Positions 20,732-32,167 of a DNA stretch of 49,844 bases are shown here, in pieces. The notes beneath the pieces are model-generated. The model saw only the letters and a list, made by a program, of their open reading frames with translations, ran no database searches and was not told where the DNA came from. Positions within the stretch are counted from its first letter, which is position 1. Each line of letters begins with the position of its first letter. The position numbers and the translations under genes are program-made. Source of the stretch: Candidatus Njordarchaeota archaeon (lineage in GTDB: Archaea > Asgardarchaeota > Njordarchaeia > Njordarchaeales > Panguiarchaeaceae); contig JAHKKZ010000003.1 in assembly GCA_029856685.1 (NCBI GenBank), positions 1-49,844 of the forward strand, read 5' to 3'.

Positions 20732-20954
20732 AAATTTTCACTCCGTGACACTCACGGTTCATAATAAGTATTCCTACTTTTAAGACATAAAATGTCTCAA
20801 CACATAATTAGCACTTTAATTCTGAGGGAAAATTATTTTCAATATCATACCACTTCACCAAACTACTTCCCTCGAAACACACTTTTGTATCTATACTTTC
20901 TGAGTGCTACCTTATAGTCAGTATGAAATTATTAGGATAGGGGTGAACATCACT

Positions 20955-21125
20955 ATGAATCGGATGATTAAACGATTAGTTAAATTTCTCCAAGATAATA
21001 GGGGATCCCCTCTCGTCGAAGAGGGGCTTTTGATAGGATTAGCTATGATACTTTTCCTCGTAATCGTGGGTATCGTGGGCAATATTATCGATTGGATCAA
21101 TAGCCTTGCAAGTGAGATACCATGA
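20955..21125 (+). CDS. short type IV/Flp-like prepilin
   Basis: MNRMIKRLVKFLQDNRG|SPLVEEGLLIGLAMILFLVIVGIVGNIIDWINSLASEIP. Basic leader, Gly at -1, Glu at +5, hydrophobic N-terminus. GGGGTGA SD 8 nt upstream of ATG. Confidence 0.65.
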   Translation: MNRMIKRLVKFLQDNRGSPLVEEGLLIGLAMILFLVIVGIVGNIIDWINSLASEIP

Positions 21126-21409
21126 GCACATCTATGTTACACAATATTATGAGGCTATCAGATACGGACAACGTAAAAACAATTGAGGATCTCTTGGAGG
21201 GAATCCTTAGGTTACCGCAGATTATCACATCATTAATTACTGAGGCAATCCTATTGATCGTACATATGATCCTATTCATCGGCATTCTACTTATTATGTG
21301 GGGTGCTTTGGAATGGTTATCGGGTTGGAATGAGATTTCTGGTAAGAAGAATGTGATTAGAGGCGTGGCATTATTGCTACTTGCCTCAGCACTAGGGATT
21401 TACCTATGA
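21122..21409 (+). CDS. two-TM membrane protein, VirB2/CedA1-like by topology
   Basis: IGILLIMWGALEWLSGWNEISGKKNVIRGVALLLLASALGIYL: TM - short charged loop - TM. ATGA overlap with the pilin gene. Confidence 0.55.
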   Translation: MSTSMLHNIMRLSDTDNVKTIEDLLEGILRLPQIITSLITEAILLIVHMILFIGILLIMWGALEWLSGWNEISGKKNVIRGVALLLLASALGIYL

Positions 21410-22035
21410 ATTTGTTTCTACCGACAGTTTCTACCAATACGATATTCTTTGGAATAGCCCTAGCCCTATTCTTATTAGATTTAATAGTCGTCCTGAAAAA
21501 TATGACGTCTTTAGGCACATATCTAAAAATGAAGTCTCTTAGTAACTACAGACACAATATCGATTTTCTACTTTCGCTTATTGCAGTAGAGATGAAATCT
21601 TTAGGACATATAATAAGAATGTTAGATGAATTTCAGATACCAGAGGCTCTTAGAAAAGAAGTGGTAGCTTATATTAATGATGCCATATTTTTTCATTCCA
21701 AAAGGGAAGAATTTACCCGCATGTATCCCTTTTTATCCTCCCTAATATGTTCCGACAACATATTTTTCCGAGTACCAAGCAAAATCCTAGATGACATGTA
21801 TCTTTCTAAGAAGAAAGAATTGATTGAAAAACAACGGATATCCCTAGATGAACTAGATGAGATGCTAAGTATCTATTTTTTCTCCCTATTTTTATTTCCA
21901 CTAGTAATGTATCAGATAGCGCTTCTAACAGGACGGTATTTCTGGCTTCTGATCCCAACTATCTTTTATTTGCTAGTTTCTATACATCAACGTAAAAAAC
22001 TATTTGCTGAAAAAGATTACGAATCGAGCAACTAA
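21406..22035 (+). CDS. uncharacterised membrane protein of the pilin cassette
   Basis: N-terminal TM, ~100-aa soluble region, C-terminal TM pair; ATGA overlap with the preceding gene. Confidence 0.6.
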   Translation: MNLFLPTVSTNTIFFGIALALFLLDLIVVLKNMTSLGTYLKMKSLSNYRHNIDFLLSLIAVEMKSLGHIIRMLDEFQIPEALRKEVVAYINDAIFFHSKREEFTRMYPFLSSLICSDNIFFRVPSKILDDMYLSKKKELIEKQRISLDELDEMLSIYFFSLFLFPLVMYQIALLTGRYFWLLIPTIFYLLVSIHQRKKLFAEKDYESSN

Positions 22036-22224: not shown

Positions 22225-23877
22225 ATGGCTGGTGCAGAAACACGTAAGGCTATCCCTGTCTTAGTATTAAAGGAGGGGACGCGACGTTCATATGGTACTG
22301 AGGCCTTAAGAAATAATATTCTTGCAGCAACAACACTCGCAAGAATGATGAAGACTAGTCTTGGTCCACGAGGATTAGACAAAATGCTTGTAGATCAGTT
22401 TGGAGATGTTGTAATAACTAATGATGGCGCAACTATACTCGATGAGATAGATATTGTCCATCCTGGAGCCAAATTCCTAGCAAAACTTTCCAAGTCACAG
22501 GACATTGAGGTCGGAGATGGAACGACAACCGTTGTAGTCCTTGCCGGCGAACTACTAAGCAAGGCCGAGGAACTTCTGGATAATGATATTCACCCAACAA
22601 AGATCATAGATGGGTACCTAATGGCTTTGAGAAAATCACTCGAAATTCTTGATAGCCTGGCAATAAAGATAGATCCAAATAAGAAAGAGGAAGTATTAAA
22701 AGTCGCTAAGACCTGCATCGCATCTAAGACTATCGCTCCGTACGCAGATCACTTTGCAAGCATCGCATACGAAGCTGTAAAGACAATCAGGTATGAGGAA
22801 AACGGTCGACTTAGGATTCCACTTGATGAAATAAAAATAGAAAAGAAAGAAGGAGGAAGCTTAACAGACACAGAGCTTATTTATGGCATTGTACTCGATA
22901 AAGAAATAGTACACCACAGAATGCCTAGAAAAGTTGAGGATGCAAAAATTCTTTTGATAGCATACCCACTAGAACTTGAAAAAAGCGAATTTGCCGATGT
23001 TCATGTATTCGCAGGAAAAACTTCAATAGATGCGCTTCTACGCTGGGAAAAAGAAAAACTCCAAGAGATGGCAGAAAAAATTATAAAGACGGGAGCAAAT
23101 GTCGTTATTTGCCAAAAAGGTATTGATGATATAGTACAACATTACTTAGCTAAAAACGGAATACTAGCTGTCAGAAGAGTCAAGAAAAGCGATATGGAAA
23201 AAATCGCTAAGGCTACTGGCGCGAAGATTATACAAAACGAAGAATTTTTAAGTTCTGATGCCCTAGGCTACGCAAATATTGTTGAGGAAAGGAAAGTTGG
23301 CGATGAAACAATGATATTTATCCGTGGATGCAAGAATCCGAGAGCAGTCTCGATTCTTATTCGGGGTGGCTCAAAGTTAACTGTAGAAGAGGCAGAAAGA
23401 AATCTAAAAGATCTGCTCCATGCAGTGAAAAATGTTATGCTTGACCCACGAATACTTCCTGCAGGCGGAGCACCTGAAATGGCCATTGCAATAAAGCTAC
23501 GTGAATTTGCTGAAAGAGAGCTAAGTGGTCGACAAAGCATAGTTGTCAAAGCATTTGCAGACGCCATTGAAGCTATTCCAAGCACACTCATAGAGACAGC
23601 CGGCCTTGATCCTATCGAAGATCTCAACAGACTTCGAACCTATCACGCGCAGGCTAAACATACCTATGGTGTCGATGTTATAAATGGCGGACTAGCTGAT
23701 ATGAGAGAACTTGGATACTTTGACCCCTTTGTCGTCAAGAAGAATGCTATTGAGTCCGCTGTCGAAGCTGCTGTAATGTTACTAAGAATCGATGATATAA
23801 TCGCAGCAAAAGAGGCCTTTGAATTAAAGAAGGAAGAAACAGAAGCAGAAGAGAGAGAATCTGAAGAAGAATTCTAG
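22225..23877 (+). CDS. thermosome (group II chaperonin) subunit
   Basis: [43 protein letters not shown], acidic tail. Confidence 0.97.
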
Positions 23878-26711: not shown

Positions 26712-26905
26712 CTAACACTATATTCTTTCTGGAAGATAAATTCCTCAAACAATAAAATATCCTTGTCATTAAGGACGAATAACATCATATTGTTTCTTCA
26801 AACGTATTGATATACTCTAACTCATGTATATCATTTTATAAAAGAGATAATGAAGTAATATTCGGTGAAATATCAATTTAATAATAATGCTAGGAGGTGT
26901 CAAGT

Positions 26906-28069
26906 TTGGCAGGAGCAGCTCCAACTCACAAAATTCCTGAACTAGAAAGACCAGCAGTAGTAGCAGACCTTGGAACAGGATTCACAAAAGCTGGATTTGC
27001 TGGAGATGATGCACCAAGAACTGTATTTCCGACAGTTGTGGGGTACCCGAAGTACTCAGTCGTAATGCCAGAAGCCGAAACACTAGAATACTATGTAGGC
27101 CGCGACGCAATACACATGAGAGGGGTACTACAACTAGTATGGCCTCTGGAGCACGCTATCGTTGCTGATTGGGATGCTTGGGAGAAACTTATGTTTCATC
27201 TATTCTATAAGGAGCTTAGGGTGAATCCACAAGATCAAGCTATTCTCATTACTGAAGCCCCCTTAAGCCCTAAAGATAATAGGATTCGTATGGCTGAGAT
27301 ACTCTTCGAGACTTTCGGTGTTCCTGGGATATACGTTGCTACGCAGGCTATTCTCTCTCTATATGCAGCGGGTAGAGTTACAGGGTTGGTAATAGATTCT
27401 GGTGATGGTGTTACCCACATAGTTCCCGTGCAAGAGTCATACTTATTAGCCCATGCTGTTAAGAGGCTTAATCTTGCTGGACGCGATGTTACGCGATATT
27501 TAGCTAAGTTGCTTACGAAGAGAGGCATCTACTTTACTTCCTCCGCCGAAATGGAGATTGCTAGAGATATCAAAGAGAAGCTATGTTATATTGCTATCGA
27601 TTATAAGGCCGAATTAGAGAAAGCCAAGAAGATTCCTAAGGCTGTTGCAGGAATGTACGAACTCCCAGATGGACGCGTGATTGAGCTTGTGGAAGAGAGA
27701 TTCATGGCCCCAGAGATCATGTATAACCCTATGCTTATAGGGCTTGAAGCTAGACCTTTGGATGAACTAGTTCTCGAGAGCATTTTCGCTACGGACTTGG
27801 ACGTCAGACCTGCGATGTATTCAAATATTGTGATTTCTGGTGGTAACACTATGCTACCTAACTTCGCTGAGAGGTTAGAAAAAGAGCTCAAGGAAATCGT
27901 CCCTGAAAGAGCTAAAGATAAGATCGCTATTGATGCACCTGAAGAGCGTATATACGGTGTTTTCATTGGTGGATCTATACTGGCTTCATTACCTGCATTC
28001 AAGAAAATTGTTGTTACAAGAAAAGAGTGGTCTGAAGTTGGTCCAGACTCTGTTCTCAGGACTCTATAG
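26906..28069 (+). CDS. actin family protein, eukaryote/Asgard-like
   Basis: VVADLGTGFTKAGFAGDDAPRTVFPTVVG, ILITEAPLSPKDNRIRMAEILFETFGVPGIYVATQAILSLYAAGRVTGLVIDSGDGVTHIVPV, LAGRDVTRYL, RDIKEKLCYIAIDY, ISGGNTMLPNFAERL, FIGGSILASL. TTG start preferred, with GGAGGTG SD 6 nt upstream. Confidence 0.95.
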   Translation: MAGAAPTHKIPELERPAVVADLGTGFTKAGFAGDDAPRTVFPTVVGYPKYSVVMPEAETLEYYVGRDAIHMRGVLQLVWPLEHAIVADWDAWEKLMFHLFYKELRVNPQDQAILITEAPLSPKDNRIRMAEILFETFGVPGIYVATQAILSLYAAGRVTGLVIDSGDGVTHIVPVQESYLLAHAVKRLNLAGRDVTRYLAKLLTKRGIYFTSSAEMEIARDIKEKLCYIAIDYKAELEKAKKIPKAVAGMYELPDGRVIELVEERFMAPEIMYNPMLIGLEARPLDELVLESIFATDLDVRPAMYSNIVISGGNTMLPNFAERLEKELKEIVPERAKDKIAIDAPEERIYGVFIGGSILASLPAFKKIVVTRKEWSEVGPDSVLRTL

Positions 28070-28199: not shown

Positions 28200-28823
28200 A
28201 TGGTTTTTAAAGATAAGTATGGTCACTATCGATTTAAAATTGTACTGTATGGACCCTCACTAAGTGGGAAAACAACAATGCTAAAAATACTGTACAATAA
28301 GATAAGGGGCCTCAAAAAGGGGCGGTTACGCATGGTTGCTGACCAATCTGGACGAACAATATTCTTCGACTACTTACCACTTAAAACTTCTGGCAACATA
28401 TTCTTCGATTTATATACTGTCCCAGGACAGAGAAGACATAAAACTCAGAGACGCCTAATACTTAAGGGTGCTGATTCTGTAGTATTTGTTGCGGATTCCG
28501 ATCCAGAAGCTCTCGAAGAGAATATTTATAGCATTCAAGAGCTTAGAACTTTTCTGGGCAACGAATGGGGAGAGATACCAATAGTTGTCGCTCTAAATAA
28601 ACGTGACCTGCCTGATGCACTCCCAGAAGTCATGATGTTACGTGTTATGCGTCTCGATGGTCCATATCCCGTATTTAAAACTGTAGCCATAGAAGGGTTA
28701 GGTGTAAAACGTGTATTCCAGGAAGCTTGTCGTCTAGCAGTTTTGGCCAGAATATTCCCTGAAGCTTTTAGAAGAGAGATCAAAATCTTGGCTAGAGAAA
28801 CCCGACGAAAACTTGGTCTCTGA
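28200..28823 (+). CDS. small Ras/MglA-like GTPase
   Basis: VLYGPSLSGKTTMLKIL (G1), YTVPGQRRHKTQRRLIL (G3), VVALNKRDLPDAL (G4 NKRD). Confidence 0.9.
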   Translation: MVFKDKYGHYRFKIVLYGPSLSGKTTMLKILYNKIRGLKKGRLRMVADQSGRTIFFDYLPLKTSGNIFFDLYTVPGQRRHKTQRRLILKGADSVVFVADSDPEALEENIYSIQELRTFLGNEWGEIPIVVALNKRDLPDALPEVMMLRVMRLDGPYPVFKTVAIEGLGVKRVFQEACRLAVLARIFPEAFRREIKILARETRRKLGL

Positions 28824-28844: not shown

Positions 28845-30563
28845 CTATTCGATAGCAGATCTAAGTTCTTTGGCTATATCTCTTGTGTAAGTAAGGATAA
28901 TAACATTTTTTCCTAATCTTCTAATCCTAACAAGCTCATTCGAGAAAGACATGTTTGTTGATGCTTTTTTATCGAGTAGTTTGTTAATAATTTCTGGGTT
29001 AACGTTATAGCTTAATAGCAAACTCCGCACCTTTGAGCAATCTCCTAGAGCCTCAAGATTGAACATGACACGAAAATCATCAAGTAGCTTATACGCTCTC
29101 TCTTCGAGATCCTGAACAATATAGCGAGGAACCCTCTTTAGTTTCTCTATAAACGCATTTATCTTATCAAGAGTAAGATTCACGTTGCTCTCTATTTCCT
29201 CCAGCTCATGTTTTAGTATCTCTCTTATCCTCTCAATCTTATCTAATACCTTCCTCTCGACATACCTATATAGCTCTGCTACTACTAGGTCGCCTCTCCC
29301 CAACTCGCCATGAGCCAATCTTTCTAGTTCCTTCAAGTAGCTTGGAGTATCATTTTTTCCATAAATTCCTATAGCGATCCTTTCTAATTCCTTCGGACCA
29401 ACACCAAGAATTATAGATGCTAATGCCAGAGCTTTAAGCCAAACACCCGGCGTATCAAAAGACCCTATTTTCGTTTCCTTAAGCCACTTAACAAATTTTT
29501 TAAAAAACTCCCAAGGATTATGATATCGGCTTTTCACTAATGGTTTTAGCTCAGTTCTATGTGCAAAAACATATGGTATCGCCCAGAGAAGGTCTTCTAT
29601 ATCAACTGCTTTTCTCCCCCTCAGCCATGCCCTTGCTCGAGCATAAGCAAAAAGCGCTATTGAAGCTCTCTCGTCAGGAGGTTCTTGAATCTTACTGCAA
29701 GGCTCATTAGCATATTCACATTCCGTACATGGAAGCCTCATATATCCTGGCATAAGGTCTAATCTACCAAACTTACATATACGGAGGGATGAAAGTATCA
29801 TTATCCCCAAGAGTTTTATATGTTCGGGTATAGCTATAGACATTACATCATTCCATACACATTCCAGTTCTTCGAAAGACATAATTTTGGGCATGGTTTC
29901 GACAATAGCAAGTTTACCAGATGTTTCTTTCTCACTTTCTAAGAGTCTATCAATTATATTCTTCGATTCCTCTAAGCCTGGAAGTCCTATATAGCAAGAC
30001 CCCCAGAACCTAGATTTTAAGGCCCGATCGATTTCTCCTCGGAATGGATTCATGTCAGCGAAGCATATGTAATCGGGAGTCTCAAAACGCATACCCCCAT
30101 ATTCAATATATCCTTCCTCCAACAGACTTAGAAGAGCATCTTGAACACTCTTAGAAAAGCGATTTATCTCATTGATAAACTTTACTCTTGCTTTTACTAT
30201 GGGACGTACTATGATTTCCTCCTTACCAGTAGTCAGCAATTTAACAAGATTCGTACTAACCAAAACTTTTTGGAGAGTCTTCTCAGGAGCCCCTATCACA
30301 ATTCCTAAAATGTCCTTCTGCCCCATTGAAAGCGCTCGGCTTATGAGTCTTACAAGAGTTGACTTTCCCGCCCCCGGATATCCAACTAATAGGACTTTGT
30401 TATTACGTATTAAGAGAGACGCGATAATAAATTCTTTGAGTGAACGATCCTGCGTAAACCATCTCTCGAAGAGTTCCTTATACAAAATTGCTATTTTGTC
30501 ACGATATTTCTCAATCTCCTCAGAATTTTCCTCCAATGCTACTCCCCAAGGGCATCCATGCAT
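28845..30563 (-). CDS. MoxR-type AAA+ ATPase with Cys4 element
   Basis: VGYPGAGKSTLVRLISRAL, FINEINRFSKSVQDALLSLLEEGYIEYGG, FADMNPFRGEIDRALKSRFWG; Cys cluster ICKFGRLDLMPGYMRLPCTECEYANEPC. Confidence 0.85.
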   Translation of the reverse strand: MHGCPWGVALEENSEEIEKYRDKIAILYKELFERWFTQDRSLKEFIIASLLIRNNKVLLVGYPGAGKSTLVRLISRALSMGQKDILGIVIGAPEKTLQKVLVSTNLVKLLTTGKEEIIVRPIVKARVKFINEINRFSKSVQDALLSLLEEGYIEYGGMRFETPDYICFADMNPFRGEIDRALKSRFWGSCYIGLPGLEESKNIIDRLLESEKETSGKLAIVETMPKIMSFEELECVWNDVMSIAIPEHIKLLGIMILSSLRICKFGRLDLMPGYMRLPCTECEYANEPCSKIQEPPDERASIALFAYARARAWLRGRKAVDIEDLLWAIPYVFAHRTELKPLVKSRYHNPWEFFKKFVKWLKETKIGSFDTPGVWLKALALASIILGVGPKELERIAIGIYGKNDTPSYLKELERLAHGELGRGDLVVAELYRYVERKVLDKIERIREILKHELEEIESNVNLTLDKINAFIEKLKRVPRYIVQDLEERAYKLLDDFRVMFNLEALGDCSKVRSLLLSYNVNPEIINKLLDKKASTNMSFSNELVRIRRLGKNVIILTYTRDIAKELRSAIE

Positions 30564-32167
30564 AGTCTAGACATTTTGTTAACAACAATGTTTACTTCCT
30601 CCTCCTCAGTAGCATCAGGTGATACATATATTATTGGGACGTTAAGAAGATTTAGTGTGGTTTCGGCTTTTTTCCACAGCTCGTGTGTAATTGCAAAGAT
30701 TACTAAAAAAACTCTTTCTCTTAGACCCATCAGATTATTTATTACTTCTGGGAACGCAATATCATATATTGCAGTATCCGTTATTATCGCTACTAACGCT
30801 TTCTCAAATAACACATTGAGGTGCTTTTCAATAAGCTCAAATACGTGTCGAATATTTGTTCCCCCTTCAGAGTCCAATCTCAGCAATAGTTCTTCAATAA
30901 TATCATAATCGAACGTTGGGGGGGATCCCTCCCATGCACCTGAAGAAAAAGTTGAGATTCCGACAGACATATGAAATTTCTTCGCAATTTCAACAAGAGC
31001 AACACCAAGATCTATGGCACGCTCAATAGCATTTCCGTCCATGGATCCACTAGTGTCTATGCAAAGTTCTATATGACGTAGAGTTCCCCTTCCAAAGATC
31101 CTTTCACCACCCCTCTCATAGACGTCGCGTAGAGTTGATATCTCGGGTATCACATAACCAAATGTATCAGCCGATATTTCAATATTTAGCTTTTCTTCGT
31201 CGTCTCCAAGAAACCACTCACTAAATCCATATTTCGTCGCCCTAGGCTCTATGCTTATTATTTTCTCCTCGATTATCGAAAGTAACTTCTTTATACGAGC
31301 CCTCCTAGCAGCAGCTAAGTACCGTCTCTTATCAAGCAATTTCTGAATTAAAACTTTATTCTCAGAGAAAGCTGGTTGCTTACCTTTTCCGCCGAGTTTA
31401 GCATCCAATTTTTTAGCAATTGTTTTTGCAAAGTTATAGTCTATCTCACCTAATAATTCCAACTCACGGGGATTCAAACATATCTTACCGCTACGATCTA
31501 TGATTTCATCGGCTGATATCGGAAGAATATATCTCCTTAAGTTTCTTTCATGGAACGACCATGGACTCAGAGAGCCCATCTCAGATAGAAGTTCCTTAAA
31601 GAAGATTTTGGCCTTGGCGTAGAGTGGGATTCTCAGGGAGACTATCCTGATAAGACGCTTAGTTCTTTCCGAAATTTGTCTCCCGAGCAGACCCTCATAG
31701 AACTCCATTAGAATCCTTCCTAGTGGGCTGTAGAAAGCTTTTTTCTGCTTAACGATCTTACTTATAGAATCCCTTACTATAGGTCTTATGCTCTTATGAT
31801 TTGAGAATTGAGTAAATATTGAGAACAAACACATTAAGGAGACAAAAAACCCATGTATTTTCTTATCGACATTTCCTAGGATTTTTCTAGAAGCTGCTAG
31901 CATTATGAGTCTATTAAGCTCAGTTGCTGGAAGAATAGCATGATACCCAAGACCAAGCAATAGGAGATAGCGATCGAAGTCGTATAAAGTGTCTCCTTCT
32001 GGATATTCAGATAGTATTATTGTGCCCCATGAATTATACCATGCTGACTTTGGCGAATCTATGCGTATGGTAAAGCCAGGAAAAAGATCGTATTCTCTAG
32101 AAACCGTTAGGACAAGATTCCTTAGTTCGAAACATCTTATTTCGTCAAGGCTATATTCTTCCTTCAT
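30539..32167 (-). CDS. von Willebrand factor A domain (CoxE-like) protein
   Basis: MIDAS motif ELCIDTSGSMDGNAIERA, SEGGTNIRHVFELI, VAIITDTAIYD; overlaps the moxR gene. Confidence 0.82.
   Translation of the reverse strand: MKEEYSLDEIRCFELRNLVLTVSREYDLFPGFTIRIDSPKSAWYNSWGTIILSEYPEGDTLYDFDRYLLLLGLGYHAILPATELNRLIMLAASRKILGNVDKKIHGFFVSLMCLFSIFTQFSNHKSIRPIVRDSISKIVKQKKAFYSPLGRILMEFYEGLLGRQISERTKRLIRIVSLRIPLYAKAKIFFKELLSEMGSLSPWSFHERNLRRYILPISADEIIDRSGKICLNPRELELLGEIDYNFAKTIAKKLDAKLGGKGKQPAFSENKVLIQKLLDKRRYLAAARRARIKKLLSIIEEKIISIEPRATKYGFSEWFLGDDEEKLNIEISADTFGYVIPEISTLRDVYERGGERIFGRGTLRHIELCIDTSGSMDGNAIERAIDLGVALVEIAKKFHMSVGISTFSSGAWEGSPPTFDYDIIEELLLRLDSEGGTNIRHVFELIEKHLNVLFEKALVAIITDTAIYDIAFPEVINNLMGLRERVFLVIFAITHELWKKAETTLNLLNVPIIYVSPDATEEEEVNIVVNKMSRLCMDALGE

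Follow-up and report, generated by a model that had tools for sequence, protein, structure and literature searches.

The three overlapping genes for small membrane proteins at positions 20955 to 22035 of the window (the whole stretch of DNA analysed, 49,844 nucleotides) are likely to encode the pilin subunit and part of the platform, as the core of a Tad-like archaeal type IV filament machine whose genes are dispersed over the genome; the machine may serve DNA exchange. It is the local version of a system found widely in Asgard and TACK archaea. The original prediction of a compact filament or transport module is partly supported overall; it had missed the fusions of the first two genes in sister lineages, the HerA/VirB4-type partner and the spread of the system through both archaeal groups.

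Asgard archaea are the closest archaeal relatives of eukaryotes, but how they acquire DNA or exchange it is, to our knowledge, not known. Since most Asgard genomes and several TACK lineages have the filament system, with a DNA-translocase-type gene coupled to its pilin gene, the question can be tested in relatives that grow in culture. Type IV filaments and type IV secretion are normally regarded as separate classes of machine; the fusion of a pilin to a VirB2-like protein described below would physically link the two.

Layout and conservation of the gene trio

The source is a 1.93-Mb draft genome (G000) of 252 contigs, 78.7% complete. It was compared with a genome of the same genus (G001), both being about 80% complete, and with order-mates (G002 to G009). 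The three open reading frames and the two ATGA overlaps between them lie where the original prediction had placed them:

20940..20946, + strand: Shine-Dalgarno-like GGGGTGA, 8 bases 5' of the ORF1 ATG (sequence)
20955..21125, + strand: ORF1, probable Flp-like type IV mini-prepilin of 56 residues (family, G-x4-E motif, T2SSE/TadB/TadC neighbours in relatives)
20955..21005, + strand: basic leader of 17 codons ending NRG, predicted cut after Gly17 (sequence, conservation of the motif, A24 peptidase in the genome)
21122..21125, + strand: ATGA, overlap of the ORF1 stop and ORF2 start (sequence; kept in G001, L003:1214-1217)
21122..21409, + strand: ORF2, two-TM protein of 95 residues with a basic loop, possibly VirB2/TrbC-like (family alignment, weak Pfam matches, fusions to ORF1)
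21406..21409, + strand: ATGA, overlap of the ORF2 stop and ORF3 start (sequence; kept in G001, L003:1492-1495)
21406..22035, + strand: ORF3, TadB-type (T2SSF) inner-membrane platform half of 209 residues (hhalign against TadB and TadC profiles)

G001 has the same trio, joined by the same two ATGA overlaps, at identities of 61, 44 and 35% for ORF1, ORF2 and ORF3, respectively; this recurrence is more than chance. In both genomes the trio is flanked by a topoisomerase VI A-type gene and a thermosome gene (both named from reading the sequence). The thermosome gene has the opposite orientation in G001, however, so that the trio is the conserved unit. Counterparts of all three genes are present in the order-mates G002, G005, G007 and G008, as expected of the conserved module originally proposed. 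G003 has counterparts of ORF1 and ORF2 only and G009 has ORF1 alone, of another subtype, while no counterpart of any trio gene was found in G004 or G006.

In several distant lineages, pilus or HerA genes have a thermosome-type gene no more than about 2.5 kb away (L124, L196, L210 and window positions 22225-23877), which reflects either an ancestral adjacency or coincidence.

The mini-pilin encoded by ORF1

ORF1 starts with the ATG at 20955, and cleavage after Gly17 (NRG/SPLVEEG) would leave 39 residues, in agreement with the leader and the mature length of about 39 residues first read from the sequence. In an alignment of 23 family members the Gly at position -1 is nearly invariant, the Glu at +5 is invariant and the hydrophobic helix is kept. 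ORF1 has the features by which Flp pilins are defined, namely a length of 50-80 residues, Gly at -1, Glu at +5 and a hydrophobic helix beside the cut. It departs from the Flp signature G/XXXXEY, in which +6 is Tyr; ORF1 and most members have Glu there, although some members (L050, L060 and L068) carry the classic motif as EYALLIG or EYALLLG.

Family members were found in 101 of the 119 genomes of the Asgard phylum, and a profile scan of genome contigs located others in Brockarchaeota, Bathyarchaeota, Methanomethylicia and other TACK archaea. Genes for a T2SSE ATPase, TadB and TadC adjoin ORF1 homologues in Freya-, Sigyn-, Jord-, Heimdall- and other Asgard genomes (pilus genes stand beside ORF1 in, for example, L175, L176, L178, L181, L182 and L185). 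It is because of this neighbourhood, more than of sequence scores, that ORF1 is assigned as a type IV pilin, the Flp-like pilin it had been taken for. Searched singly against Pfam, ORF1, ORF2 and ORF3 gave nothing significant, and ORF1 obtained no significant Pfam or NCBIfam name of its own; three members of its family match Flp_Fap weakly. Profile searches of the PDB with the ORF1 and ORF2 families returned nothing meaningful.

The two-helix protein encoded by ORF2 and its fusion to ORF1

ORF2 has two hydrophobic segments around WLSGWNEISGKKNVIRG; its loop, GKKNVIRG, is basic and its N-terminus acidic. AlphaFold2 predicts two helices, residues 3-67 and 71-94, with a mean pLDDT of 88, and the two-TM hairpin with a basic loop is common to 29 aligned relatives. 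The predicted topology places the basic loop in the cytoplasm and both ends outside, with the orientation taken from the positive-inside rule.

Weak Pfam matches in the ORF2 family include TrbC (PF04956) in 8 of 29 members and T4SS_pilin (PF18895) in 4 of 29, besides other families, with a best E-value of 2.7e-4. Reversed ORF2 sequences served as the control because the set of unrelated two-TM proteins, which held one sequence, was too small; among the families listed for 28 reversed relatives, neither TrbC nor T4SS_pilin occurred (0/28). A sequence search of the PDB gave no match to ORF2, and Foldseek of the ORF2 model against the PDB gave generic helical matches only (E >1). The two TM segments around a charged loop that had been predicted are thus present, and the proposed likeness to VirB2/TrbC is weakly supported, by Pfam matches that the reversed controls lack, by the positive-inside topology and by linkage to HerA/VirB4 in relatives, but has no match among solved structures.

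In G002, G007 and G008, ORF1 and ORF2 form a single continuous frame of 149-151 codons, with no stop between the two parts, and no methionine separates the helix of the pilin from the first helix of ORF2. Because the three genomes come from a single genus, the fusion may have arisen only once. The fusion puts the N-terminus of ORF2 at the outer end of the pilin, which fits its acidic N-terminus and basic inner loop.

An ORF2-type gene is absent from the TACK operons examined, and ORF2 is therefore not core to the system. It adjoins a HerA/VirB4-type ATPase gene in three genomes of family f15 (L118, L129 and, by coordinates, G037) and lies within about 25 kb of one in families f6, f16, f12 and f21, while the two are unlinked in the source genus. 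The idea that ORF2 is the detached TM pair of HerA, which the HerA of the source genus lacks, was set aside, since both are found in families f6, f15 and f16. Another small two-TM gene with a basic loop, which the ORF2 profile does not match, follows ORF1 after a gap of 16 bases (L180:3620-4193) in a genome that has a Heimdall-type locus.

ORF3 and the membrane platform

The original prediction could not place ORF3. Its layout is one TM segment, a soluble stretch and then two TM segments, and by profile comparison it is a diverged TadB-type (T2SSF) platform half. A profile of six order-level homologues aligned with a TadB profile of 22 Asgard and TACK sequences from pilus loci with an hhalign probability of 95.2% and an E-value of 2.5e-8 over 178 columns, while it did not match TadC (E 0.26); a direct Pfam T2SSF search gave no ORF3 match. 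An AlphaFold2 model of ORF3 built from two sequences (pLDDT 52) was set aside.

In order-mates, a fourth gene, ORF4, directly follows ORF3 and resembles TadC (hhalign E 6.1e-6) rather than TadB (0.25); thus the ORF3-ORF4 gene order is that of TadB-TadC. Neither G000 nor G001, each about four-fifths complete, yielded the ORF4/TadC half. A direct PF00482 search of these two genomes detected no platform protein, and ORF3 is therefore the only platform candidate seen.

Candidate motor ATPase and prepilin peptidase

The trio has no prepilin peptidase, secretion ATPase or complete TadC next to it, just as first noted, and the motor was correctly expected elsewhere: a search of the genome located the cognate T2SSE ATPase and a short A24 peptidase on other contigs. 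T2SSE ATPases of the TadA type are encoded by P0007 (PF00437, 8.3e-16) and P0008 (PF00437, 9.8e-14). P0007 is the one T2SSE ATPase of the pilus-operon family in the source genome (phmmer 3e-32 to 5e-40). It adjoins a TFIIB-like gene, a kind of gene also seen close to pilus loci in relatives (pair profile against pilus-locus TFIIB-like proteins, hhalign E 6.7e-6). The A24 prepilin peptidase (L005:8645-9052) has 135 residues and matches PF01478 at 1.5e-9.

The second T2SSE-type protein of the genome, C68 (L013:7791-9395), was rejected as the pilus motor; its N-terminal half is PIN-ATPase-like, and phmmer with P0007 does not detect it. It is apparently a PIN-domain ATPase and is kept in G001.

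Association with a HerA/VirB4-type ATPase

In 15 TACK loci an ORF1-type mini-pilin gene is followed directly by a HerA/VirB4-type ATPase gene, with gaps of -16 to +36 bp; several pairs overlap or touch. Such tight coupling of ORF1 and HerA genes suggests joint function. Several of these pilus-linked TACK HerA proteins carry two N-terminal TM segments, and in L196 the HerA frame is broken in two, with the N-terminal TM part separate from the ATPase part. One pilus-linked HerA-type protein matches the TraG P-loop model above the cut-off. HerA is also enriched near ORF1 across many Asgard families: the pair lies within 30 kb in 35 of the 68 Asgard genomes that have both, against about 2 expected, a figure to be taken as a guide, since a single family supplies 20 of the 35 linked genomes and the expectation uses approximate genome sizes.

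In the source genus the HerA gene is unlinked to ORF1, and its product is without the N-terminal TM pair. In a midpoint-rooted FastTree phylogeny of 54 HerA-type proteins, the source-genome HerA on contig C7 groups with the pilus-linked proteins in one clade (local support 0.97). The remaining HerA paralogues of the sample, mostly of 500-680 residues, lie outside that clade, and among the DUF87/HerA proteins of the source genome in the tree only C7 is placed in it; the others were rejected as pilus partners. Beside the C7 HerA gene is a gene (L116:2600-3751) whose product has an N-terminal hydrophobic segment, a caspase-like domain (PF00656, 4.8e-11) and a bacterial Ig domain.

ComEC (PF03772) was absent from 16 genomes in a search that was positive in 10 of 14 control genomes; a Com-type route is therefore unlikely.

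Comparison with known systems

The system resembles the bacterial Flp/Tad (type IVc) pilus in having a mini-pilin of 50-80 residues cut after Gly with Glu at +5, a TadA-type ATPase, TadB and, in relatives, TadC as separate proteins, a short TadV-like peptidase and parts that may be distant from each other (PMC4322843). It differs by the Glu at +6 in most members of the ORF1 family, by the ORF2 partner and by the scatter of the source genus's genes over four or more loci; other Tad accessory genes were not seen. Flp pili are required for transformation in Micrococcus luteus (PMC4322843), but here a HerA/VirB4-type partner takes the place of ComEC.

With archaeal type IV pili it shares a T2SSE ATPase, in relatives a TadC-like platform, TFIIB homologues near the pilus genes and an A24 peptidase encoded elsewhere, as described in the main text of the 2016 census by Makarova et al. 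(PMC4858521). In contrast, that text names no HerA, VirB4, VirB2 or Flp component of a pilus, and no ORF2-like partner was seen in it. The main texts of this census and of a 2019 survey of type IV filaments do not mention HerA as a pilus component. The operon of a type IV pilin with HerA and the ORF1-ORF2 fusion appear undescribed in the main texts of the accessible literature.

Among DNA-transfer systems it is comparable to Ups and Ced of Sulfolobales and Ted of Thermoproteales, where a type IV pilus (Ups) acts with Ced, which has a two-TM VirB2-like pilin and membrane HerA/VirB4-type ATPases (PMC9905601, PMC11868833). There, the pilus and the import machine are separate gene sets, whereas in the present system the gene of the mini-pilin is itself joined to such a gene: in TACK archaea it is coupled to HerA, and in Njordarchaeia it is coupled, or fused, to a VirB2-like gene. 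ORF2 resembles T4SS pilins (TrbC/VirB2 PF04956, T4SS_pilin PF18895) in its two TM helices and short basic loop, although the profile matches are weak.

Proposed mechanism and alternatives

If the dispersed parts work jointly, the A24 prepilin peptidase encoded on another contig would remove the ORF1 leader after Gly17. ORF2 would be a partner membrane subunit that accompanies the pilin, with its basic loop inside the cell, at a ratio of about 1:1 through coupled translation, and would be covalently joined to the pilin in sister lineages. ORF3, as the TadB half, would join a TadC half and, again from another contig, the T2SSE ATPase in extracting the pilin from the membrane for assembly. The pilus-linked HerA/VirB4-type ATPase of the source genome would then most likely move DNA through or alongside the complex. 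The pairing with a DNA-pump-type motor in relatives suggests DNA exchange by cells; taken by itself, this role is a tentative one. In a bolder version, the machine would be a hybrid of two classes, in which a type IV pilin and a VirB2-type conjugative pilin form one subunit, a Tad-type motor extracts it and a HerA/VirB4-type motor moves DNA; filament and DNA-transfer machines that are separate in Sulfolobales (Ups, Ced) would then be one device in Asgard archaea and in the TACK operon. We regard this version as unlikely.

The pilus could instead be an ordinary one of the Tad or archaeal type IV kind, made for adhesion or aggregation, with the neighbouring HerA of relatives serving another process. 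This would agree with the adhesive nature of most known Flp/Tad pili (PMC4322843), with the large secreted proteins with a C-terminal TM segment in Asgard clusters and with the unlinked HerA of the source genus. The position of HerA directly after ORF1 in the TACK loci and its enrichment near ORF1 across Asgard families argue against it, and make it the less likely case. ORF1 could also be held in the membrane by ORF2 as a pseudopilus-like sensor or secretion piston, with no external fibre. The pilin joined to two further TM helices in three order-mates would oppose simple extraction, and the TadC half was not found in the source genus (G000, G001); but in most relatives the mini-pilin is free and comes with all of T2SSE, TadB and TadC, and two-TM VirB2-type subunits are themselves extractable (PMC9905601), so that such a non-filamentous complex seems distinctly unlikely. 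Finally, ORF1 gives a match to NCBIfam secE_euk_arch (E 0.04, below the cut-off) and a few other family members match SecE/Sec61-gamma weakly, which would make it a single-TM protein of a translocation cassette. This is disfavoured and very improbable, given the G-x4-E conserved at the cleavage site, the EYALLIG of some members, the T2SSE/TadB/TadC gene neighbourhood in relatives and the TadB-like ORF3. The filament machine remains the preferred reading.

Other genes in the window and in pilus loci

Further along the window, an actin-like gene (26897-28069) is closely followed by a small GTPase gene (28200-28823), a pairing kept in G001 (L004, partial), and at 28845-32167 a MoxR-like AAA ATPase gene overlaps a vWA-type gene head to tail; these names come from reading the sequence. 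The main text of the archaeal census lists MoxR-like/vWA-type pairs as possible pilus regulators (PMC4858521). Asgard pilus loci (L122, L120, L123 and L124) often hold Ras-like GTPase, roadblock-type and Orc1/Cdc6-type genes, named mostly from reading the sequence, as well as large secreted genes with a C-terminal TM segment.
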